In this document: positions 1 through 54,472 of the stretch, piece by piece | How positions within the stretch are numbered: position 1 is the first letter of the stretch | How the letters are laid out: the number at the start of each line of letters is the position of its first letter | Source of the DNA: Bacteroidaceae bacterium | GTDB taxonomy: Bacteria; Bacteroidota; Bacteroidia; Bacteroidales; Bacteroidaceae | DNA: 61,259 bases | NCBI GenBank assembly: GCA_017546505.1 | Contig: JAFYWV010000067.1 | Location: 1-61,259, forward strand | Direction of reading: 5' to 3' | Made by a program: the position numbers and the translations under genes | Notes under the pieces: generated by a model | What the model was told of the DNA's origin: nothing | The model's database searches: none | Seen by the model: only the letters and a program-made list of their open reading frames with translations

Positions 1-142
1 CGATATGGAAATTGCACTATAAATTTATATAGCCCAACAATTCCGTCCTCTACTTTTGTACCAAAACTATATATAGTTTTGGTACAAAAGTAGAGGACGG
101 AATTGTTGGGCTATATAAATTTATAGTGCAATTTCCATATCG
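1..142. repeat. Perfect 142-bp palindrome at the window edge
   Basis: Every base i from 1 to 71 is the complement of base 143-i, so the two 71-bp arms are perfect with no loop; the centre is the AT-rich stretch around 63-80. The right arm contains the last codons and stop of the HNH-motif gene, so the left arm is a mirror copy of a gene end. Such a long perfect arm that runs exactly to the sequence edge is most simply a fold-back artefact of library preparation or assembly. A real hairpin end or a very long natural inverted repeat cannot be excluded from sequence alone. Confidence 0.95.
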
Positions 143-1944
143 TCGAATTTTTCTACAAATTCCTCCTGACTATTATAGCCGAGATCTACACTCATAAATG
201 AAGCAAGTTCAAAGAGTTTGGTATTTATATCAACAATGTTATTATTATCTATAGCATTTTGTATTCCATTTCTAATTGAAGTGAATTGAACTTTATGTGC
301 TCGCATAGTTTCAATAGTGACTGTATCAAATGTTTTCTCTGCCTCCTTAATATCATTTATGCGCTCATCAAATATTTCTTCAATTCGCATTCGACGTTTT
401 TCTGCCTTGACGCTAAATAAGTCTATCTTGTCCAATAACAACATAAACATTGTTGATGCAATACCAGATAACATTGTTGACAAGATTACAGACCAAGGCT
501 CAGTAACACCAATTTTATTCAAAAGTGCTTCAATTCCAATACCACATATGGCAATAACACTTCCACCTAGAATTTTTATAATAGCATCACCCTTTTGCGC
601 TGCAGTCATTTGACTTGCTTGCTTACCGAACAAGACCTTGCCAGCTTGTACAAAAACTTTTATACCCTCTTTAACGACTTTAAGAATCTGCTTGAAAATA
701 CCGACAAAGAGACTAATAACACCTTCAATTAAAGAAGATATAAAGCCTTTTACAAATTCCCATACGTTATCACTAAGGAATGACATAGCATTGTCAAGTA
801 CATACTTTTTAACTCTACCAAAGCGAATCTTAAAGGCTTGTGACGTAGACTCTGCATTTACACCCTCTTTAAGCCCGTTATTAAAAATGTCTGAGATTTC
901 ATAATATAATGGCTTGATTATAAATAGGATGACATTTCCTACAACATAATCCTTTGATTGATTTGCAGCATTAGATGCTGATTTTCTCCAAATTTCTTTA
1001 GTATTTCCAGTTCCTTGTCCTGTGATATTTGCAAGGATAGCCTTATCTGCATCGTTATTTATATGCTTCTGAGCATCTTTTTCCATCTGAAGCATATTTT
1101 CTTTTGCTTCTTCAGAAATACCAAGATTAGGACGACCTCCCTTTTCGCGGTTTCGTTGATCTTCAACAAACTCAGAATTAGTCATATCAAACTTACCACC
1201 TTGTCCAGGAGCACCTGCACCTCTGTTAATACGCGCAGATGTAAGAGCATAATTTGTATCGTTGTTTGCGATATTCTTAATATCTTCATCAGTCAAAGCA
1301 TAGTTACCTTTTAGCTGATCATGAATTTGCTTCAAAGGAACAATATGGTCAACCTCCGCCTGATGGTCATGCTTATATTTTTCTACATTTCTACGTGCAT
1401 CAGGATTGCTTCTGTATTGATAAACATTTTTCTCTCCAGTATACTCATCTGTAGCATTTATCCTGCCTCCATTATTATCAAACTTGTCCTGCTTATATTG
1501 ATTGAGACGTTCCTTATCTTCATACTCACCTCTATTATAAGCCTGACGAGTGTTTTCACCATATTGAGTGAAATCTTCTCGTGTTTGGTCACCTACATTC
1601 TTCCATTCTGTATAGCCATCAGGAACTATTGTGTCTGTTTCAACCTGATCATAGTTGAATGACCTGCACTGAGATACAATTCTTGATGCTGTTAATCCTT
1701 TCTTACGTAATTTTCGAGTTGCAGATGTTGACTCTAGCAAACCATCGGCTATTGACATAAATACAGGAACAACTACTTCGTCAACAAGGTTACCTGACTT
1801 TTCAAATTCTTGGTACACCTCATCAACTACTATACGAGTCTCTTTCTTATCATATAATTCCGCTTCTTTTAATTTTGAAACTAGTTCTAATGGAGAAGCA
1901 TTTCTGATGCTATCTTCTAACTCTTGTAATTTATTCTTGTCCAT
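121..1944 (-). CDS. HNH-motif protein with C-terminal membrane segments
   Basis: Not a family I can name. The N-terminal ~90 residues are helical and charged. Around residues 190-250 (numbered from the ATG ending at 1962) there is an HNH-like core: EVDHIVPLK with Asp205-His206, then NNDTNYALTSARIN supplying Asn residues, the spacing expected of a beta-beta-alpha-metal nuclease. From about residue 335 to 520 come four hydrophobic stretches (near 338-355, 400-425, 465-490, 495-520), then a charged helical tail. A nuclease motif joined to a membrane part suggests a membrane-tethered or membrane-disrupting effector; this is inference. It is the last gene of a five-gene leftward operon. I prefer the ATG at 1944, which leaves 4 bp after the upstream stop; an ATG at 1962 would overlap the upstream gene by 14 bp. 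The final codons lie inside the edge palindrome, but the stop is present. Confidence 0.8.
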   Translation of the reverse strand: MDKNKLQELEDSIRNASPLELVSKLKEAELYDKKETRIVVDEVYQEFEKSGNLVDEVVVPVFMSIADGLLESTSATRKLRKKGLTASRIVSQCRSFNYDQVETDTIVPDGYTEWKNVGDQTREDFTQYGENTRQAYNRGEYEDKERLNQYKQDKFDNNGGRINATDEYTGEKNVYQYRSNPDARRNVEKYKHDHQAEVDHIVPLKQIHDQLKGNYALTDEDIKNIANNDTNYALTSARINRGAGAPGQGGKFDMTNSEFVEDQRNREKGGRPNLGISEEAKENMLQMEKDAQKHINNDADKAILANITGQGTGNTKEIWRKSASNAANQSKDYVVGNVILFIIKPLYYEISDIFNNGLKEGVNAESTSQAFKIRFGRVKKYVLDNAMSFLSDNVWEFVKGFISSLIEGVISLFVGIFKQILKVVKEGIKVFVQAGKVLFGKQASQMTAAQKGDAIIKILGGSVIAICGIGIEALLNKIGVTEPWSVILSTMLSGIASTMFMLLLDKIDLFSVKAEKRRMRIEEIFDERINDIKEAEKTFDTVTIETMRAHKVQFTSIRNGIQNAIDNNNIVDINTKLFELASFMSVDLGYNSQEEFVEKFDDMEIAL

Positions 1945-1948
1945 AATT

Positions 1949-2866
1949 TTAGGCGGCTTCATTAAGTTTCTTTATATCTTCCTTTTGCTTGCGCATTTCC
2001 TCCTTTACAGCTGCTACATTTGAGCTGACCTTTTCTGTCTTACCCTCCATAGTGATGTTTTTATCAACCATTGACTTTAAGACTTTTGAAATTGAGACCA
2101 TCGCCATAATTTCTGCCTGTTGTGATTTGGGAAGCAGTTTTATACTCATTTGTTCACGAACAAGCTTGTGAGCAAAACTTATACAACGTATCATCAGGAA
2201 ATTAACAGAATTGTCAAGTCTATTGAGGAGTGCACGATATAACTCAATCAAGGAAAGGTAATATTCTGCAATAAGTTCTAACGCTTGTTTAATATTGCGT
2301 AGTTTTACCAATTCAGAATCCATTCGCGCCATTTCTTCTTCGAGACGTTTTTTCTCTTCTTTTACACGCTCTAATGTTTCCTTGGCTTTTTTTCTCGTAT
2401 AAAAACCTAAGGTAACTATCGCTAAAGAATTGCTCTTGAATGGATTCTTCTTGAAGTCAATCAAATATAAATCCGCCTTAGACTTCATAGAATCGACTTT
2501 TAGAGTTTTCCCAGAGAAATATTCTTTAAGATACTCATCTGATACAGTGATGTCCTTTAGCTTCTTCATCTTCTCCGCGAAAGCAGGAAAAAGCTCTGTT
2601 TTAATAGTCTCTTTGGAACTATTAATAGATTTAACCTGTGCTTCAATTTCCGAGCTAAGGTTATCCACTTCTTTCTCAAAATATGCTTTATGAGCTTCAA
2701 ATCGACGCATGACATCTTCGTACATTTTGTCTGCTTCTTCAAAGGTCGCTTGCCCAGTGAAAGACTTGTAGCCACTTGAGATAGCTCGCCCTGTGGCTTT
2801 AACTGCATTTGATATTGCAGATGTTACAGCTTTGGCTTTTCTGCCAATCCAACCAAAGATTCCCAT
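1949..2866 (-). CDS. Coiled-coil protein with amphipathic N-terminal helix
   Basis: About 305 residues, family not recognised. It begins MGIFGWIGRKAKAV and continues as a Lys/Ala/Ser-rich amphipathic helix to about residue 38, the kind of segment that lies on or inserts into membranes. The rest is predicted largely alpha-helical and highly charged, with a strong coiled coil around KKRLEEEMARMDSELVKL and a final Lys/Glu-rich heptad region. There is no signal peptide or clear transmembrane span. The start at 2866 sits 3-5 bp after the TerB-like stop; an in-frame ATG at 2908 would overlap that gene by 38 bp and add residues that look unlike an N-terminus. Co-transcription with the HNH-motif gene is likely. 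A scaffold or membrane-acting partner is a guess. Confidence 0.8.
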   Translation of the reverse strand: MGIFGWIGRKAKAVTSAISNAVKATGRAISSGYKSFTGQATFEEADKMYEDVMRRFEAHKAYFEKEVDNLSSEIEAQVKSINSSKETIKTELFPAFAEKMKKLKDITVSDEYLKEYFSGKTLKVDSMKSKADLYLIDFKKNPFKSNSLAIVTLGFYTRKKAKETLERVKEEKKRLEEEMARMDSELVKLRNIKQALELIAEYYLSLIELYRALLNRLDNSVNFLMIRCISFAHKLVREQMSIKLLPKSQQAEIMAMVSISKVLKSMVDKNITMEGKTEKVSSNVAAVKEEMRKQKEDIKKLNEAA

Positions 2867-2870
2867 ATTT

Positions 2871-3275
2871 TTATTCTTTAGCGTTAATATACATAAGTCC
2901 GACTTCAAGGAAATCTGAAAAATCCTTGCTCCAACGAATTAATCTTTCTGTTTCCTTTCTTGGAAGCATAAATGTATCAGATAATTTATAAATCCAATTC
3001 ATTTCATTGATATCTATCTCCTTATCTGTATAAAGTATGCCACAGAGTTCAATAATTACACTTCTTTTGATAGGCACAGAACTGTATCTAAATGCTGATA
3101 CCGCATCCTCAAATGAAATTCCAACTGTTTCATAATCTGTCAAATTAAGTTCTGTCAGATATGTTTCGTACTCGGCCTTTTCACAATCTTTTTCTTCGCC
3201 ATTCACTTTCATTGCTTGGATGGCAAGTTCCATAAAGGCTTTTCCTTCGTTATCATTCAATAAATATAAAAACAT
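2871..3275 (-). CDS. TerB-like protein
   Basis: A 134-residue, acidic, all-helical protein. Two spots resemble the paired acidic signature of TerB domains: NGEEKDCEKAEYETYL near residues 26-42 and DKEIDINEMNWI near residues 93-104, where TerB proteins typically have a D-G-x-(I/V)-x3-E pattern. TerB domains come from the tellurite-resistance operon and recur in membrane-linked stress and phage-defence gene sets; they are thought to bind divalent metal and to act with membrane partners. It lies 2 bp downstream of the membrane coiled-coil gene and just upstream of the amphipathic coiled-coil gene, so it is probably part of the same complex. No signal peptide. Family call is from motif resemblance only. 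Confidence 0.7.
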   Translation of the reverse strand: MFLYLLNDNEGKAFMELAIQAMKVNGEEKDCEKAEYETYLTELNLTDYETVGISFEDAVSAFRYSSVPIKRSVIIELCGILYTDKEIDINEMNWIYKLSDTFMLPRKETERLIRWSKDFSDFLEVGLMYINAKE

Positions 3276-3277
3276 AA

Positions 3278-4909
3278 TTATTTCTTTTTTCCGTTAATAT
3301 CAAATTCTGTCACCTCTACTGTGTATTCGTTTCTATAATGAACCTGTCCGTTTTCATAGAATACCTGCTCTATATTCACATTTCCCGTTGTATCATAATT
3401 CCTTGTTTTATAAATTCTATCATCTTCATACTCCACTTCATAGACAACACACCCTTTTTGTTTCATCACAGATTTAACAAGATTACCGTCCTTATAATGA
3501 TTGGAGACAATATTTCCCGTTTCTGCATCAAAAAATTCCTCCATACGGTTTGGTTTCAAACTTGGTTCCGCCGTAGGCACATCTTGTTTTAAAATAGGCT
3601 CATCGCCTCCTACACCCACATTTGGGAATTTCATTCCTTTAGAAATAGTACGGAGTACAATCTGCAATAGCTCCTTACTCTCTGCGATATTGCCAGACAA
3701 CACTTCGATGGCATTTATTACATTAATAGAAAATTTATCAGCACTTTCATTACGCAAACCATCCATTTTTGAGATTGATTCATCCAAAGCCATTAAGTCA
3801 GACTTATCAACCAATTCAGCAGTTTTCTGTTCTACAGTCTTGCATACATAGGTGGCCTGGTTAGAAATTTCTTCTAATGAATGTTGCGTCAGTTTTATTT
3901 CATCTGAAACTGTTCTAATTTGACCAAGTATCACAGTGTCGGATTTCTCCAAAGAAGCGGCAATTGCTTTCTGTCCGGAGATCAAAGAATCCATACCTGA
4001 CTCAAGACCCGCTTTGAGCTCTGAGCTTCGGCTATCCAAAGACTGCAACAATGAATCAGTCATTTGGATTTGGGCAGCAAAGCCATCATCTGCAAGTTTT
4101 GAAACAGAACCCAAACCGGATGCTACGAGATTCGATATTTCATTCTTGTTTGATTCTAATTGACCCTTCAATTCTACAGAAATATTAGAAAATAGTTCTT
4201 TCGATTGTGACATAAACGAAATGATCATATCAGACTTATCTAACAACTCTGCGGCTTTCTGGTCTACACTCCTGCATATGTGGACAGTATTGTTAGATAT
4301 TCCTTCTAACGAGTGCTGCAATGCGTCATTATGCTCTTTTGAGAGTTTTATGAGATTATCGGAAGAGGTATTGCATTCACTTTTGAGAATCTCAGTACCA
4401 GAGACAACTGACAGTTTTATTTCATCTGAAACTGTTCTAATTTGACCAAGTATCACAGTGTCGGATTTCTCCAAAGAAGCGGCAATTGCTTTCTGTCCAG
4501 AGATCAAAGAATCCATACCTGACTCAAGACCCGCTTTGAGCTCTGAGCTTCGGCTATCCAAAGACTGCAACAATGAATCAGTCATTTGGATTTGGGCAGC
4601 AAAGCCATCATCTGCAAGTTTTGAGACAGAATCCAAACCGGATACTACGAGATTCGATATTTCATTCTTGTTTGATTCAGAATGGCTCTTCAATTCAGAA
4701 TATATTTTACATATTAAATCTTCCAAATCTGCAAACCTCTTATCAAACGAAGCTTTCTCTTTCTCATAAGTAGCTACCAGATATATGACGAACAGAACTA
4801 CAAAAATTGCAAGCAAAGTTGCCCACAGCCATATAGGTAAATACATTCTGACCAACAGAGCACCCAAAATAACCAACAGTAAAAAACTTGTAATAATTCT
4901 CAGTTTCAT
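3278..4909 (-). CDS. Membrane-anchored coiled-coil protein with MORN-like C-terminus
   Basis: 543 residues. Two hydrophobic segments (about 5-21 and 25-47) separated by a short loop anchor the N-terminus; the following KEKASFDKRF starts a long helical, Ser/Asp/Leu-rich coiled-coil region to about residue 400. This region contains two nearly identical 89-residue blocks (encoded at 4412-4678 and 3890-4156), a recent internal duplication with 174-codon period. After a Pro-rich linker the last ~95 residues contain YKDGNLVKS, FYENGQVHYRNEY and FDINGKKK, which resemble MORN-variant (YwqK-type) repeats. The domain plan, two helices then a long rod, recalls signal-transducing or motor-associated membrane proteins, but there are no MotA-type motifs. 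Its position as first large gene of the operon suggests a sensor or membrane platform. Function unknown. Confidence 0.8.
   Translation of the reverse strand: MKLRIITSFLLLVILGALLVRMYLPIWLWATLLAIFVVLFVIYLVATYEKEKASFDKRFADLEDLICKIYSELKSHSESNKNEISNLVVSGLDSVSKLADDGFAAQIQMTDSLLQSLDSRSSELKAGLESGMDSLISGQKAIAASLEKSDTVILGQIRTVSDEIKLSVVSGTEILKSECNTSSDNLIKLSKEHNDALQHSLEGISNNTVHICRSVDQKAAELLDKSDMIISFMSQSKELFSNISVELKGQLESNKNEISNLVASGLGSVSKLADDGFAAQIQMTDSLLQSLDSRSSELKAGLESGMDSLISGQKAIAASLEKSDTVILGQIRTVSDEIKLTQHSLEEISNQATYVCKTVEQKTAELVDKSDLMALDESISKMDGLRNESADKFSINVINAIEVLSGNIAESKELLQIVLRTISKGMKFPNVGVGGDEPILKQDVPTAEPSLKPNRMEEFFDAETGNIVSNHYKDGNLVKSVMKQKGCVVYEVEYEDDRIYKTRNYDTTGNVNIEQVFYENGQVHYRNEYTVEVTEFDINGKKK
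3890..4156 (-). repeat. Intragenic direct repeat, copy 2 (C-proximal)
   Basis: 267 bp that match 4412-4678 with only 4 substitutions by base-by-base comparison. It encodes the C-proximal copy of the coiled-coil block in the membrane coiled-coil protein. The reading frame is kept and the period is 522 bp. Confidence 0.95.
4412..4678 (-). repeat. Intragenic direct repeat, copy 1 (N-proximal)
   Basis: Partner of 3890-4156. The flanking sequence between copies is also distantly repeated at the protein level (HSLEGISNN versus HSLEEISNQ), pointing to an older unit with a recent conversion or duplication of the core. Confidence 0.95.
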
Positions 4910-4945
4910 AGAATATTATTTTTATTCAAGAATAAATCATTTATT

Positions 4946-5167
4946 TCACCCCATTCTCACCACATCATGATACACAGTGTTCAATGCGCCAAGACGTTTC
5001 ACATCAATGCCATATACACGCATAAAGGCATCGGCAACGGCTTGACCACCGTTGATGGTAAGTGGGTTGCTCATAGAATTTGTTACTACGTCTACCGACA
5101 TACCACGCTCGATGCGTATTCCGCTTGTAAGCTTCATCTGTTTTACTATTACTCTGAATAGTGGCAT
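4946..5167 (-). CDS. Small DUF6140-like protein
   Basis: 73 residues with no signal peptide or membrane segment. The pattern RxERGMSVDVVTNSMSNPLT followed by an INGG turn and a conserved end resembles the Bacteroidales family I remember as DUF6140; the assignment is from memory and its function is unknown. A well-formed Bacteroidetes promoter (5190-5220) lies just upstream, and the next gene starts 36 bp downstream on the same strand after a small AT-rich hairpin (4921-4936), so this is probably the first gene of the leftward operon. Its base composition is less AT-rich than the four following genes, so it may instead be a resident gene behind which the others were inserted. Confidence 0.75.
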   Translation of the reverse strand: MPLFRVIVKQMKLTSGIRIERGMSVDVVTNSMSNPLTINGGQAVADAFMRVYGIDVKRLGALNTVYHDVVRMG

Positions 5168-5189
5168 AGTAATAGGTTTAATTTATTCG

Positions 5190-5220
5190 CAAATATATCC
5201 TTATTTTTCATTTTCGCAAA
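5190..5220 (-). promoter_or_regulatory. Promoter of the leftward operon
   Basis: On the minus strand a TTTG (5217-5220) is followed after 19 bp by TATATTTG (5190-5197), an exact match to the Bacteroidetes -33/-7 consensus with ideal spacing. The start codon at 5167 follows about 16 nt after the expected transcription start. Confidence 0.75.
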
Positions 5221-5556
5221 CCATTTGTTAATTTTTGTCAACACAAAAGTAGAAGGGTACAAAAAAGGCGCAGGCTCCTTGCTGTCTTCAATCATCGAAA
5301 TACAGGCATCGTCAAACGCCTAAAGAGAAGATGAGTTAAAGAAACAAAAAAACACGCTATCTAGTATATACGACAATGCATACCGCATTGCATCTATACA
5401 AAACAGTGAGCGTTGTGTCCTTCATCCCTTATCTTACTTTAAATTGGCTATTTCGTATTTCAGGATAAAGCAAAAAAACAATTTGTATGTTGGAACAACC
5501 TTGGGCAATATATACCGCTGAAAGAGTTCAAAAAAATAATGTAACAGTTACACCAC
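5221..5556. other. Intergenic region with no supported gene
   Basis: About 336 bp between the operon promoter and the stop of the cytochrome c biogenesis gene. Mixed composition, several A-runs, no open frame with coding character, no tRNA-like fold. A short palindrome with arms GTAAC and GTTAC at 5540-5550 could be part of a weak terminator for the gene to the right. This stretch marks the border between AT-rich sequence on the left and ordinary sequence on the right. Confidence 0.6.
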
Positions 5557-6987
5557 TCACGCATAGCTGTGCAGGCCACCAAGCAGGTAGTTCACGCCAA
5601 AGAAGGTGAACAGCACTGCCAGAAAAGCCACAATGCAGAATATGTGGAATGCAACGGGCTTTGAGATAAAACGCAGCGAGTGCGAGTGGAAGCCCATTGA
5701 GCACAATAGCAGCGTCACCAGCGCCCACACCTCTTTGGGGTCCCACCCCCAGTAGCGCCCCCAGGAGAGGTTGCCCCACACTGCCCCAATGAAAATTCCG
5801 CCTGCAAGCAGCATTGTGGCCGGATAGAGCAACAAGCGCCCAAGCACTGCCTGTTGCGCCTTTCTTTTTGCATCCTTTTGGCACAATGCAACGACAGCAT
5901 TCACGGCTGTGCAAGCAAGCAGTGCGTAAGCAATTATTATTGTTGTCACGTGGATGCTCAATAAAGGGGTGCGCAGTATTGGCTGTACATCACTGTCGCC
6001 GTCGAGGCCGAGCGCAGCAACAACAAAAAACATAGCGGCAACAACAACGAGTAATCTACTCAATAGCACGAAGCGTTTCTTGCGCCCCAGAGCAACTGCA
6101 AGCAACATTACAAAAAGAACAAACAGCATAAGCGCCTCGGCACCATTTGTTGCCGGGAACACGCCACGCCCGTGCCACAGTATGCACAAAAACAAAAAAG
6201 ACACCGGCAGCGCCACCCACATTCTCCTGGCGAGAATGCTCAGAGACATAATATCCCTCTCTTTTTTTACAGCAACCTTTACACTTTCACCTTTCACCTT
6301 TCCGTTTCCGGTTTTCCCTTTAATCTGCTGCAGCAAGGCTTTGAAGCCGCTCTGTCTGTCAAAGAAAAGCAAAAGGAACGAGAAGAACACCATTGCATAG
6401 CCCAAGTAACTTATCGGGCGGCCATACACATCGTGCGAGACCAACAGCCACAGGCAACCGTCCTCTACTCCTTTTATACAGAACTGATAGCCATTGATTT
6501 TTATAGGAGCATTCAACGACAAGGTATGTAAATCAGATGCCTTGATGTTATCGGCACGGATATATGCCTTGTAGTCACTTGGAGCACCGTTATCCAGGTA
6601 TATAGTATCGACACTCACCAATTGCAGACGGAACGGCAGCTTCTCCAGTTGCCCGTCGTGCATTTCAAACATAGAAGCCGGTACACCACCCTCTGAAATT
6701 GCCATATCCCCACGCTTTGAGGTGAGGAACGACACAAATGCGCCAAGCAACACCACCACTAACGATGCGTGCAACAGGATTAGTGAAACACGCCTTTGGG
6801 TGCGCAATATATATGCAGTGGCTGTCACTGCAAGCAGCGCCCACAAGGCAATGAACCACCACGAATGGTAAATATTTTCAAGAGCAAACGGCAAGCCATA
6901 GATATTCTCTATCAGGGTTGCTGCAACCAGCACTGCCACAAGCACCCCTGCGCCACCAAAAGAGACTATTTCAAGAACTTTCGTCAT
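5557..6987 (-). CDS. Fused ResB/CcsA-type cytochrome c biogenesis protein
   Basis: 476 residues, polytopic membrane protein of the system II type that carries and attaches haem to apocytochrome c outside the inner membrane. The N-terminal ~215 residues look like a shortened ResB (CcsB) part: three hydrophobic helices, an extracytoplasmic segment with INGYQFCIKG, and a fourth helix. The C-terminal half is CcsA (CcsC/ResC): the tryptophan-rich WWD-type motif WGRYWGWDPKEVW ends near residue 422 (Asp416), preceded and followed by helices with conserved His. Between the halves is a Lys/Gly-rich linker (about 225-245) encoded by an unusual TTTCACC-type tract. Only 3 bp separate it from mntP upstream, so the two are probably co-transcribed. 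Such fused proteins are usual in Bacteroidales, where they serve cytochromes such as NrfA. Confidence 0.9.
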   Translation of the reverse strand: MTKVLEIVSFGGAGVLVAVLVAATLIENIYGLPFALENIYHSWWFIALWALLAVTATAYILRTQRRVSLILLHASLVVVLLGAFVSFLTSKRGDMAISEGGVPASMFEMHDGQLEKLPFRLQLVSVDTIYLDNGAPSDYKAYIRADNIKASDLHTLSLNAPIKINGYQFCIKGVEDGCLWLLVSHDVYGRPISYLGYAMVFFSFLLLFFDRQSGFKALLQQIKGKTGNGKVKGESVKVAVKKERDIMSLSILARRMWVALPVSFLFLCILWHGRGVFPATNGAEALMLFVLFVMLLAVALGRKKRFVLLSRLLVVVAAMFFVVAALGLDGDSDVQPILRTPLLSIHVTTIIIAYALLACTAVNAVVALCQKDAKRKAQQAVLGRLLLYPATMLLAGGIFIGAVWGNLSWGRYWGWDPKEVWALVTLLLCSMGFHSHSLRFISKPVAFHIFCIVAFLAVLFTFFGVNYLLGGLHSYA

Positions 6988-7719: not shown

Positions 7720-8116
7720 GGGGCTATCTGGATTTGACAGCGGGTAGAAAAGGTATGTAAGCACGCAGTGCATTGCCGGTTCGCACTATAATATGAGCAG
7801 GCAAAAATTTATCTGGCAACAATAACTACGCTCTTGCTGCTTAATCGAAGTATAGTAGATTAGCTTAATCCCTGCACCAGGTGCGGGGACGAGACATCAC
7901 CCGGACGCTGTTGTTCCGAAGCAATCCGATACGGTGGTGCAGGCAAATCGGGACTAACCATTGCAGGCCTCGATGCAATGGCGACATTTTAGAGGATAAG
8001 GCGCAGGTTGGCGGTCGCGGTCTTGCCTGTGCTCGAAAACCCCACCGATGACTAAGCGTGTAGAAAGCATATTGTTTCCCTGTTTGGACGAGGGTTCGAC
8101 TCCCTCTAGCTCCACA
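7720..8116 (+). ncRNA. ssrA: Transfer-messenger RNA (tmRNA)
   Basis: The 5' end GGGGCTATCTGGATTTGACA and the 3' end GGTTCGACTCCCTCTAGCTC form the alanyl-tRNA-like part; GGGGCTA (7720-7726) pairs with TAGCTCC (8107-8113) with one G-U. The CCA is not encoded. The tag frame runs from GGC at 7815 to TAA at 7842-7844 and reads GNNNYALAA, ending in the usual YALAA degradation signal of Bacteroidetes tags. It rescues ribosomes stalled on broken mRNAs, working with SmpB (not in this window). Its promoter (7645-7675) and terminator (8135-8177) are both visible. Confidence 0.97.
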
Positions 8117-52469: not shown

Positions 52470-54314
52470 TCATTCACCCGTATAGCGGATTTTCTCATAT
52501 ACATACTGACCTTTCACCACTCGTTCCTCACACTCATAATTTGCACTGACAAGATCAAATTCAGCTCTATAATATTTTGTTTTCACACCGCCAAGATTGA
52601 AGAGAGTATTGCAAATATTATCAAGGACGAAAGGACGGTTGACAGCCTTGTGTATACTATCCACGATATTTGGATTGTTCTTCTTGTAAATATCGGAACA
52701 CCAGATTACAAAAGGAATTTCAAATTGATATTTCAACATCATTGGAGTTATTTCACCGTGATCACGACCACACTGTTTCCTGTAATCGTATGCCTCTTCG
52801 CCGTGGTCCGAGAAATATATAAGCACTGTATTACTGTCCTTGAAAGTATCAAAAATCCGGCTCATCACATAGTCGTTGTATAGAGTAGCATTGTCGTAGT
52901 CTGCAATATACTCTTTCATTTCATTTGTCAAAAAAGCATCGTTTCTTTTTATACTGTCGGCTGTAAAATACTTGAAAGTATCGTGCGGAAAACGTCCCGA
53001 TGGAGTCACGTGCTGCCCCTGCAAATGAAACAATATCAAATTACTCTTTTCTACTGAAATATCGACATTATTGTTGAATGATTCTACAATGCCACCGTCA
53101 TATTCATACGACTCGCTGTTTGTTTGGGTATACAAGATATTCTGCAGCTCAGGATTATACAAAAAACTGTTCAAAGTAAATGAATATGTAGCCATTTTGT
53201 CATAATCGCGCTGATTGTCCCAGAAAAGGACATTATACCCTGCCTTTCTGAATATGGTAAGAAACGTCGGATAATCGAACCATTGTTCCTCTACATCATT
53301 ACTGTTACAGCTGAAAATTTCCCTCATCACAACACTGGTGCTATTTGATGAAGAAATGACATCATTGAACACGAACAACCTCCCTTCCTGCTGTTCTTTT
53401 TTCAAATTAGGAGATGTTGCAAGACTATAGCCATACAATTGGGAGTGGCTTTTGATATAAGACTCACCGATTACTACAACAATATTAATTGTGTCATCCT
53501 GTGTGGTATATGCATTTTCCGTTTCATAGACTCTTTTGTTGACCTCAATTGCATCAGACACATTACTCGACATCATCTGCAAAGTTACCAAAGAGGTGTA
53601 TATTGAAGACAACGGGTCGTTAGGTGGCAATAAATAACGTATATGATCGGGGGACTTTGCATTGTAAACCCTCCAGTATATGTTTGTTGAATAAAGTCCA
53701 AACAACAATATTATAGCCAAGAAGAGCGTCACACTCCTTGTCAAAAATATGGAGAGCGAAGAGATTTTCTCTTTTCTGTTCACTGCTTTTTTAATGTAGA
53801 ACCAGGAGAGCTCGGCTACAATAATTGCCAAGACATAACAAGAAACTGACTTCAACAAAGGCAACATTGAATTGGAAAGAATATATTGATCTATAAATTC
53901 CGTCGATTCGGTTACGGTCGTCTCTGCTAACAGTACGAAACAGGTCGGGGATATTTCAAGACCGAAATTTGACATCAAGAAATATCTTATAGAAAAAAGA
54001 AGTATTAGAATGAGATAAAAGAAAATTTTAACACACAGCCTCGCGGAATTTCTTCTTATAGCCGTAAGAGCTGCAGCCAATAGATAGGCAAATAGAAACA
54101 ATATAGCAATTCTACCGGAGAGATTCAAATATGTTGGAAGCATCGAAATATTCTCCAGCGCATTTGCACGCTGGATAATAAGATGGCATATAGAACTCAA
54201 CCCCATCAGTTTCATAAAGAAAAAGATGAAAGGAATTTCATTCAAAAAAGACCTTGACAGACAGTTATAACCACTGAATAGAGATTTAGAGCCTCTGTTA
54301 CTGCAATTATTCAT
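52470..54314 (-). CDS. Phosphoethanolamine transferase (sulfatase-fold, EptA-like)
   Basis: 614 residues. Five N-terminal membrane helices (to about residue 215), then a periplasmic alkaline-phosphatase-like domain: INIVVVIGESYIKSHSQLYG, the nucleophile in SNSTSVVMREIFSC (Thr326), and FSDHGEEAYDYRKQCGRDH as metal ligands. Such enzymes move phosphoethanolamine from phosphatidylethanolamine to lipid A or other glycans. Several family members also have cysteines matching disulphides. Codon use and composition are AT-richer than sprA and the TPR gene, and it sits next to tRNA-Arg, hinting at acquisition. ATG 54314 is preferred; a longer frame overlaps the tRNA terminator region. Confidence 0.88.
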   Translation of the reverse strand: MNNCSNRGSKSLFSGYNCLSRSFLNEIPFIFFFMKLMGLSSICHLIIQRANALENISMLPTYLNLSGRIAILFLFAYLLAAALTAIRRNSARLCVKIFFYLILILLFSIRYFLMSNFGLEISPTCFVLLAETTVTESTEFIDQYILSNSMLPLLKSVSCYVLAIIVAELSWFYIKKAVNRKEKISSLSIFLTRSVTLFLAIILLFGLYSTNIYWRVYNAKSPDHIRYLLPPNDPLSSIYTSLVTLQMMSSNVSDAIEVNKRVYETENAYTTQDDTINIVVVIGESYIKSHSQLYGYSLATSPNLKKEQQEGRLFVFNDVISSSNSTSVVMREIFSCNSNDVEEQWFDYPTFLTIFRKAGYNVLFWDNQRDYDKMATYSFTLNSFLYNPELQNILYTQTNSESYEYDGGIVESFNNNVDISVEKSNLILFHLQGQHVTPSGRFPHDTFKYFTADSIKRNDAFLTNEMKEYIADYDNATLYNDYVMSRIFDTFKDSNTVLIYFSDHGEEAYDYRKQCGRDHGEITPMMLKYQFEIPFVIWCSDIYKKNNPNIVDSIHKAVNRPFVLDNICNTLFNLGGVKTKYYRAEFDLVSANYECEERVVKGQYVYEKIRYTGE

Positions 54315-54362
54315 ATTGTGTGTTCCATAGTTTGTGCGGCTGCCCCTATAAACGGGGCAATG

Positions 54363-54399
54363 AAAAAAGGTGGAAAAAGGCAACCGCCTTCTCCACCTT
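54363..54399 (-). terminator. tRNA-Arg terminator
   Basis: On the minus strand AAGGTGGAGAAGGC, a GGTT loop, GCCTTTTTCCACCTT and a T-run: stem with two mismatches, 2-38 nt past the tRNA 3' end. Confidence 0.75.
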
Positions 54400-54400
54400 G

Positions 54401-54472
54401 TACCTCGGTCGGGAATCGAACCCGAATCTAATCTTTAGGAGAGACTTATTCTATCCATTGAACTACCAAGGC
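54401..54472 (-). tRNA. tRNA-Arg (anticodon CCT)
   Basis: 72 nt. Acceptor GCCTTGG pairs with CCGAGGT; anticodon stem AGTCT/AGATT with loop CTCCTAA and anticodon CCT; T arm TCGGG/CCCGA with loop TTCGATT; discriminator A. Reads AGG. CCA is not encoded. Confidence 0.95.

Follow-up and report, generated by a model that had tools for sequence, protein, structure and literature searches.

The window examined here is the whole 61,259-nucleotide contig JAFYWV010000067.1 of a Bacteroidaceae bacterium (contig C57 of its own genome, which counts 2.62 Mb in 130 contigs and is 86% complete). At one end it carries a cassette of five leftward genes, encoding a DUF6140 protein, a coiled-coil rod with two transmembrane segments, a TerB-like protein, a second coiled-coil protein and an HNH protein with a C-terminal membrane half. 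The cassette is part of an acquired island and is probably an anti-phage module, in which a membrane-anchored HNH effector is gated by envelope-associated partners. An earlier note on this DNA had proposed an abortive-infection or envelope-stress system. Anti-phage defence is now the best reading and, judged from sequence comparison, a likely one. It is favoured over a stress role because immune systems (type III CRISPR-Cas or LeoA/LeoBC) occupy this locus in relatives, the HNH protein matches a candidate defence family (PDC-M40B), and members of that family stand beside JukA.

The HNH/membrane family and its partners

The HNH protein matches the PADLOC model PDC-M40B with 85.8 bits (E-value 7e-25) over residues 128–548; PDC labels in PADLOC are those of candidate defence families. 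Pfam, NCBIfam and PHROGs return nothing for the protein at E-values up to 1. The HNH nuclease motif consists of a catalytic-type histidine, an aspartate or glutamate before it and two asparagines after it. All 22 aligned rows, the window among them, keep H206, N237 and N246, and each has D or E at position 205 (D205 in the window). The same residues are kept in the homologue of Aeromonas phage LAh10, which brings the number of sequences to 23. The HNH motif named in the earlier note holds. Its count of four membrane segments is less well supported: three hydrophobic segments (404–422, 460–478 and 492–510) pass a Kyte–Doolittle mean of 1.6, and each of the 22 aligned family members has one to three above that threshold. 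The C-terminal half is conserved across the family as well, with a TT..R.VR.IREG motif and the later hydrophobic segments. A separate alignment, A4, leaves out L022–L024, L027, L002 and any plasmid locus.

Relatives are found in 33 of 72,556 plasmid records (E-value 1e-3), in 18 genome loci and in genome G572. The genome loci come from the second of two contig scans, which detects only members holding its short patterns and gave these 18 out of 47 pattern matches; the first scan confirmed none, and scans of viral contigs confirmed no relative. The PDC-M40B model matches 3 of 395 genomes in the phylum, one of them (G470) by a short HNH-only stretch. A search with the family alignment matches 4 of 395 genomes in the class, three again by short HNH-only stretches. 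The nearest relative of the window protein is encoded on a Cronobacter plasmid (L005, 36% identity). In a tree built without L020–L024, L027, L034 and L035, these two are joined firmly (100/98), while L019 is a long branch of unsure placement. When a profile of seven wider members is compared with the window/Cronobacter pair, 314 columns (window residues 169–522) align at 99.8% and 8e-28. These comparisons place the protein in a widespread family, itself a listed candidate defence family. Sequence searches of the PDB gave nothing useful (the TerB-like adaptor profile reaches E-value 0.053 with TerB chain 2jxu), and the literature search found no paper on PDC-M40, on the combination of TerB, HNH, transmembrane and defence, or on DUF6140.

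Outside the window and phages, 29 HNH-membrane loci were available for comparison of neighbours: 10 plasmid records, G572 and the 18 genome loci. Plasmid neighbourhoods were read for these 10 records against 34 matched, nine of the ten being among the 34 and L019 coming from a separate search. The partner tally leaves L027 out. For partner clustering, 22 of these loci supplied 27 proteins, to which the five window proteins were added. A JukA-type gene lies in the same gene run in 7 of 29 loci, in Citrobacter, Mailhella and others; it is recognized by profile in L006, L021 and L025 (best 2e-58, 1e-58 and 5e-48), and by annotation or near-identity in L020 and L022–L024. Proteins of one TerB-like cluster occur in 13 loci (L002, L005, L009, L017, L026, L029–L035 and L038), and 3 of the 10 scanned among them exceed the Pfam TerB cut-off. 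The JukA of L006 (4906–6120), which adjoins the HNH-membrane gene, has an extra C-terminal TerB-like domain that matches L038 with 22.7 bits in a phmmer search of a 32-protein set. Further partners are PDC-M40C (L007 and L008), a PDC-M09A type (L010 and L028, with another small gene between in L028) and other coiled coils (L018, L019 and L036); L037 ends at a contig edge. In L019 the coiled-coil gene stands directly upstream of the HNH gene, as in the window. Known defence genes lie near several loci: csm6 in L009, cmr1 in L019, a Sau3AI-type enzyme in L017 and TIR in L008. Across these loci, then, the effector stays the same and its membrane-associated partner changes.

Four Aeromonas phages, each about 260 kb long, carry homologues as well (7 of 50,697 phage records). 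In LAh10 (L139 2976–5572) the gene has an intact HNH motif, is annotated as a cobalamin adenosyltransferase and follows a gene related to the PDC-M09A-like partners of L028 and L010. The corresponding region of phage D6 (L140 2976–5572) resembles that of LAh10 by its gene table. Queries with the window HNH protein and with the TerB-like adaptor matched no phage record.

The acquired island and its bracketed locus

The five genes described in the earlier note are real and tightly spaced (Table 1). There is a 14-bp overlap between the HNH gene and the coiled-coil gene, the latter counted from the ATG at 2866 and not from the TTG at 2908 that starts the listed open reading frame (ORF); the next gaps are 4, 2 and 36 bp. 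A single promoter match does lie upstream. Its pattern, TTTG-N19-TATATTTG, the Bacteroidetes-type consensus, has 4 matches in the whole window, where shuffles lead one to expect 1.29 and 2 of 100 shuffles reach 4; this one pattern has no match inside the five-gene run. The DUF6140 assignment is certain.

The contig end itself needs interpretation. Window positions 1–142 form a perfect palindrome. Another contig of the same genome, C33 (L055), shares this end: its bases 1–86 equal window 3–88 and, on the other strand, window 55–140. C33 then runs beyond the HNH stop codon into a sixth co-directional gene, here called gene M. Because C33 shares the end and continues past it, positions 1–71 are most simply read as an assembler fold-back at a natural palindrome, and C33 as the true continuation. 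The order on C33 is the end of the HNH gene, a 34-bp palindrome, gene M and then, on the other strand, HD-domain, ribonuclease Y and ZapA-like genes, these names having been assigned from reading the sequences. Matches to microRNA families at 14–134 were rejected as a product of the fold-back palindrome.

The resulting six-gene island of about 6.2 kb lies between a cytochrome-c-biogenesis (ccs) gene (window 5557–6987) and the HD-domain gene, in the order DUF6140, rod, TerB-like, coiled coil, HNH and gene M. The island is acquired, because two related genomes have an empty site and a 19-bp direct repeat flanks the insertion. In both of these genomes (G010 and G022) the HD, ribonuclease Y and ZapA genes come directly after ccs. 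The two copies of the repeat differ by one mismatch, and the flanks compared (1.5 kb and 1.2 kb) share no other 19-mer within that tolerance. A single counterpart, differing at two positions, is present in each of the empty-site stretches. In a random control 1 of 400 draws contained a 19-mer with at most one mismatch, draws less than 3 kb apart having been skipped yet counted. The distance of about 6.2 kb between the copies is arithmetic and holds provided that C57 and C33 join as read. The earlier note had suspected acquisition from composition, and the four larger genes are indeed AT-richer: guanine-plus-cytosine (GC) content is 0.361 in 121–4909 against 0.476 in 5168–61259. By gene it is 0.32–0.375 for these four, 0.45 for DUF6140, 0.41 for gene M and 0.50 for ccs. 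No integrase-like gene is apparent among the six.

Gene M encodes 185 amino acids (aa) and has no PADLOC or Pfam match at 0.01. Within the genus, DUF6140 is found in 8 of 44 genomes, gene M in 7 and both in 6, an overlap with a hypergeometric probability of 2.7e-5 if the genomes were independent, which they are not. DUF6140 is rarer outside the genus (12 of 120 relatives, 3 of 295 genomes in the class). Between DUF6140 and gene M, G013 and G031 carry type III CRISPR-Cas genes with 66-bp spaced repeat arrays (L089, L090 and L094). The G013 cargo includes Cas10 (2e-117), Csm3 (7e-66) and a CARF-HEPN protein of Csx1/Csm6 type (6e-131); G031 has Cas6 (8e-49), and counterparts in the two genomes are 82–89% identical. 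The G013 locus spans two contigs, which we infer to join because both end in the same kind of repeat array. The G043 locus (L091) holds the dynamin-like pair LeoA (2e-146) and LeoBC (1.5e-99) and, by eye, a DUF1232-like gene. G003 carries a small GTPase and an IetA-like ATPase (7e-26); G040 carries DUF1232 together with small proteins, of which some look hydrophobic by eye; the outer flanks of these two loci are alike and their insides different. EcsC occurs in G013 and in G062, a member of another genus. In G028 the contig stops about 3 kb past DUF6140, and gene M of G015 is a 60-residue fragment. No flanking repeat was found at the G003, G031, G043 and G040 loci with exact words of at least 13; this search also missed the repeat of the window's own genome, which emerges once a single mismatch is tolerated, a setting applied there alone.

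DUF6140 thus stands with unrelated cargo in other genomes and is not special to this cassette. Because DUF6140 and gene M bracket type III CRISPR-Cas, LeoA/LeoBC and IetA-like cargo in relatives, the location supports a defence role for the genes between them here. This bracketed locus is a more general lead than the cassette itself.

A conserved non-coding element, a candidate small RNA or leader, precedes DUF6140. It is 80–89% identical over about 220 nucleotides in G040, G003 and G043 and is not found in G013, G031 or G028; copies elsewhere lie at L067 3307–3540, L071 2143–2378 and L069 6087–6321. The element folds better than shuffled sequences (z −2.78). The consensus fold has no covariation support, since only 1 of 70 pairs is changed on both sides, and Rfam gives no match at E-values up to 1.

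The rod gene has grown by an in-frame duplication of 300 bp with 522-bp spacing. The two copies are 95% identical; 12 of 100 codons differ, and 9 of these change the residue. The length of the rod may vary between strains.

Table 1. Features at the cassette end of the window.
Feature	Position	Strand	Basis
Probable assembly fold-back	1..71	.	arm 1–71 is the exact reverse complement of 72–142; read-through on C33
34-bp palindrome 3' of HNH gene	55..88	.	also present in the read-through on C33
HNH protein with C-terminal membrane half, 613 aa; probable effector	121..1962	-	ORF; PADLOC PDC-M40B 7e-25
Coiled-coil protein with amphipathic start, 305 aa; probable partner	1949..2866	-	ORF
TerB-like protein, 134 aa	2871..3275	-	Pfam TerB below cut-off
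Two-transmembrane coiled-coil rod, 543 aa	3278..4909	-	hydrophobic segments 5–23 and 28–46
Internal duplication of rod	3890..4711	-	copies 3890–4189 and 4412–4711
DUF6140 protein, 73 aa; heads this island, as it does other variable loci	4946..5167	-	Pfam 3e-34
Bacteroidetes-type promoter match TTTG-N19-TATATTTG	5190..5220	-	upstream of DUF6140
Conserved non-coding element (candidate small RNA or leader) with a long hairpin and a T-run at its end	5255..5485	-	before DUF6140
19-bp flanking direct repeat, left copy	5557..5575	-	end of ccs gene; right copy C33 (L055) 772–790

Two further observations concern the rest of the window. A transfer-messenger RNA gene (7720–8115) lies close to the island. 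An AT-rich stretch with a large ORF, labelled by eye as a membrane sulfatase-like protein (52470–54383, minus strand), adjoins a tRNA-Arg gene (54400–54472) and is possibly a second acquired segment.

Proposed mechanism and alternative readings

A mechanism can be outlined for the module. (i) The coiled coil with its amphipathic start, the two-transmembrane rod and the TerB-like protein, by their position and anatomy, would form the sensor or gating side at the envelope. (ii) Phage injection, or another disturbance of the membrane, would cause these partners to recruit or release the HNH protein. (iii) The HNH protein would be the output, a predicted nuclease that its C-terminal half presumably anchors in the inner membrane. 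(iv) It would cut DNA near the membrane, either incoming phage DNA, following the recruitment logic of JukA, or that of the host. (v) DUF6140 and gene M bracket the module, as they do other defence cargo in the genus.

The anatomy of the partners agrees in part with what the earlier note had read from the sequence. The amphipathic N-terminus of the coiled coil is upheld: the strongest 18-residue hydrophobic moment within its first 58 residues lies at the 99.7th percentile of the protein. No family matches this protein above a curated cut-off, and the weak matches are to LmuB (6e-4) and a Mu Gam-like family (5e-4). The rod has its two strong N-terminal hydrophobic segments and otherwise weak matches to HEC-01B (1.7e-4) and TolQ (0.0012).

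Several findings weigh against the proposed module. Membership of the rod, TerB-like and coiled-coil proteins in the HNH system is putative, being drawn from position and anatomy. The HNH query finds its own genome only among 200 relatives searched. The rod and the coiled coil find theirs only among 150 and neither is present in the plasmid collection. The window TerB-like protein is likewise missing from plasmids, the only collection searched with it. The view that the partners act with the HNH gene therefore rests on one operon. No relative of the operon as a whole was found. The coiled coil matches the L019 partner, its nearest counterpart by position, at chance level, and homology between them is not supported. 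The MORN-like end ascribed to the rod is not significant (MORN_2 E-value 0.74). A Pfam TerB match exists, at 20.0 bits and E-value 9e-4, yet it is below the cut-off of 24.4, and the metal-binding function once proposed stands on this sub-threshold match. Against the profile of the family's TerB-like adaptors the window protein scores 0.9 bits, not above decoys, and 0.2% with hhalign; the idea that it is this adaptor set free is not supported. At the locus level, four other relatives (G021, G023, G025 and G032, with more distant or partial ccs matches) have ccs beside other neighbours, so the empty-site comparison rests on two genomes. The co-occurrence count of DUF6140 and gene M takes no account of shared ancestry or incomplete genomes. 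Gene M shares 50% identity with its counterpart in G031 and only 36% with the one at the G043 locus; for DUF6140, the G023 copy is no more than 34% identical.

The extent of the system and the nature of its weapon can be read differently. It is somewhat unlikely, though a reading of some weight, that the system consists of the overlapping HNH and coiled-coil genes only, with the rod, TerB-like and DUF6140 genes carried along or forming a second unit that shares the promoter. One partner gene is recognized near the HNH gene in most collected loci, the L019 arrangement offers a precedent, and DUF6140 travels with other cargo. The 4- and 2-bp gaps that join rod, TerB-like and coiled-coil genes speak against such a division, as do the similar AT-richness of all of them and the want of a match to the tested promoter pattern inside the run. 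The weapon could alternatively be the membrane half, acting as a pore or membrane disruptor while the HNH fold binds or gates, in the manner reported for JukB pores on the early infection vesicle. Conservation of the C-terminal half would fit this, as would the JukA partners of several family members, since JukB is reported as a tetrameric pore in PMC13282480. A mere binding fold would not need the D/E-H...N...N residues kept in 23 of 23 sequences, however, and no JukB match is listed in the PADLOC scans, in which the presence of a JukB model was not checked. This reading appears improbable.

The purpose of the module can also be questioned. An envelope-stress or tellurite-type stress function, not immunity, would be in keeping with the recurrence of TerB-like, EcsC and DUF1232 proteins in these loci and with the Cronobacter relative, which adjoins a Ter-type cluster. 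It is nevertheless very unlikely: the bracket also houses type III CRISPR-Cas and LeoA/LeoBC, JukA stands beside relatives of the HNH protein, and that protein was missing from all 199 other genomes searched. That the module serves in competition or exclusion, directed against plasmids or rival phages, is a shade less improbable and still unlikely: homologues do reside on the Aeromonas phages, with the PDC-M09A-like partner in LAh10, and on plasmids, some of them conjugative, but the island here is chromosomal and none of its six genes looks plasmid- or phage-like. Anti-phage defence by a membrane-anchored HNH effector remains the preferred reading.

A broader and speculative extension, doubtful at present, is that membrane-anchored HNH nucleases are general entry-site effectors. 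One conserved effector would work with a range of unrelated sensors at the membrane and would cut entering phage DNA. These sensors would be JukA, TerB-like adaptors that begin with a glycine zipper, coiled coils and, in the window, an assembly of rod, TerB-like protein and coiled coil. Within the genus, modules would be exchanged in the bracket of DUF6140, often preceded by the non-coding element, and gene M, their cargo being type III CRISPR-Cas, Leo or HNH genes. The whole unit could also insert at the 19-bp site without carrying an integrase. If so, a single membrane-bound nuclease would be the weapon for many phage sensors, among them JukA, which senses jumbo phages, and a copy of it would be carried by some large phages themselves. 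Sensor swapping on one effector would be directly testable, and the DUF6140-to-gene-M bracket would be a simple handle for finding more immune modules in this bacterial group.

Comparison with known systems

Several described systems share parts of this design. According to PMC13282480, JukA detects infection at an early stage and brings in effectors, among them JukB, which is reported to form its pore on the early infection vesicle. The window resembles Juk, in which JukA works with diverse effectors, in its logic of a sensor and a membrane-acting effector, and its effector family stands beside JukA elsewhere; the window proteins themselves have no JukA match at E-values up to 1, and no JukB match is listed. 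A TerB-like protein in a defence setting, in the window a sub-threshold match, recalls Shango, Bunzi and Dionysus: TerB domains are reported in Shango and Bunzi (PMC10952713; for Shango also PMC10250203) and a TerB homologue in Dionysus (PMC12926258). Shango differs in its ATPase and helicase genes (PMC10250203), no such family being listed for the five window proteins. Dionysus is said to stop early vesicle formation (PMC13282480) and is mentioned in PMC12931631; the Pseudomonas relatives L031 and L035 may belong to it. The rod recalls Zorya as a transmembrane protein with a long coiled-coil tail. Its TolQ match, however, is 18.7 bits against a cut-off of 221, its ZorA match is 10.3 bits against 190, and no ZorB is listed for the window proteins.

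Another close likeness is to PDC-M40, which pairs the HNH-membrane protein PDC-M40B with the coiled coil PDC-M40C: the window HNH protein is of that family, and a coiled-coil gene adjoins it. None of the five window proteins matches PDC-M40C at E-values up to 1, whereas the L007 and L008 partners do. The window also has the additional rod, TerB-like and DUF6140 genes, and its nearest relative, L005, itself has no PDC-M40B match at 0.1. By sequence, then, the cassette is not Juk, Zorya, Shango or a complete PDC-M40. As the earlier note stated, Zorya, CBASS and Thoeris do not match, beyond the weak TolQ- and ZorA-like matches of the rod; its word undescribed goes too far for the HNH gene, because PADLOC already lists that gene's candidate family. 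The candidate family is known; its arrangement in a six-gene island is new.

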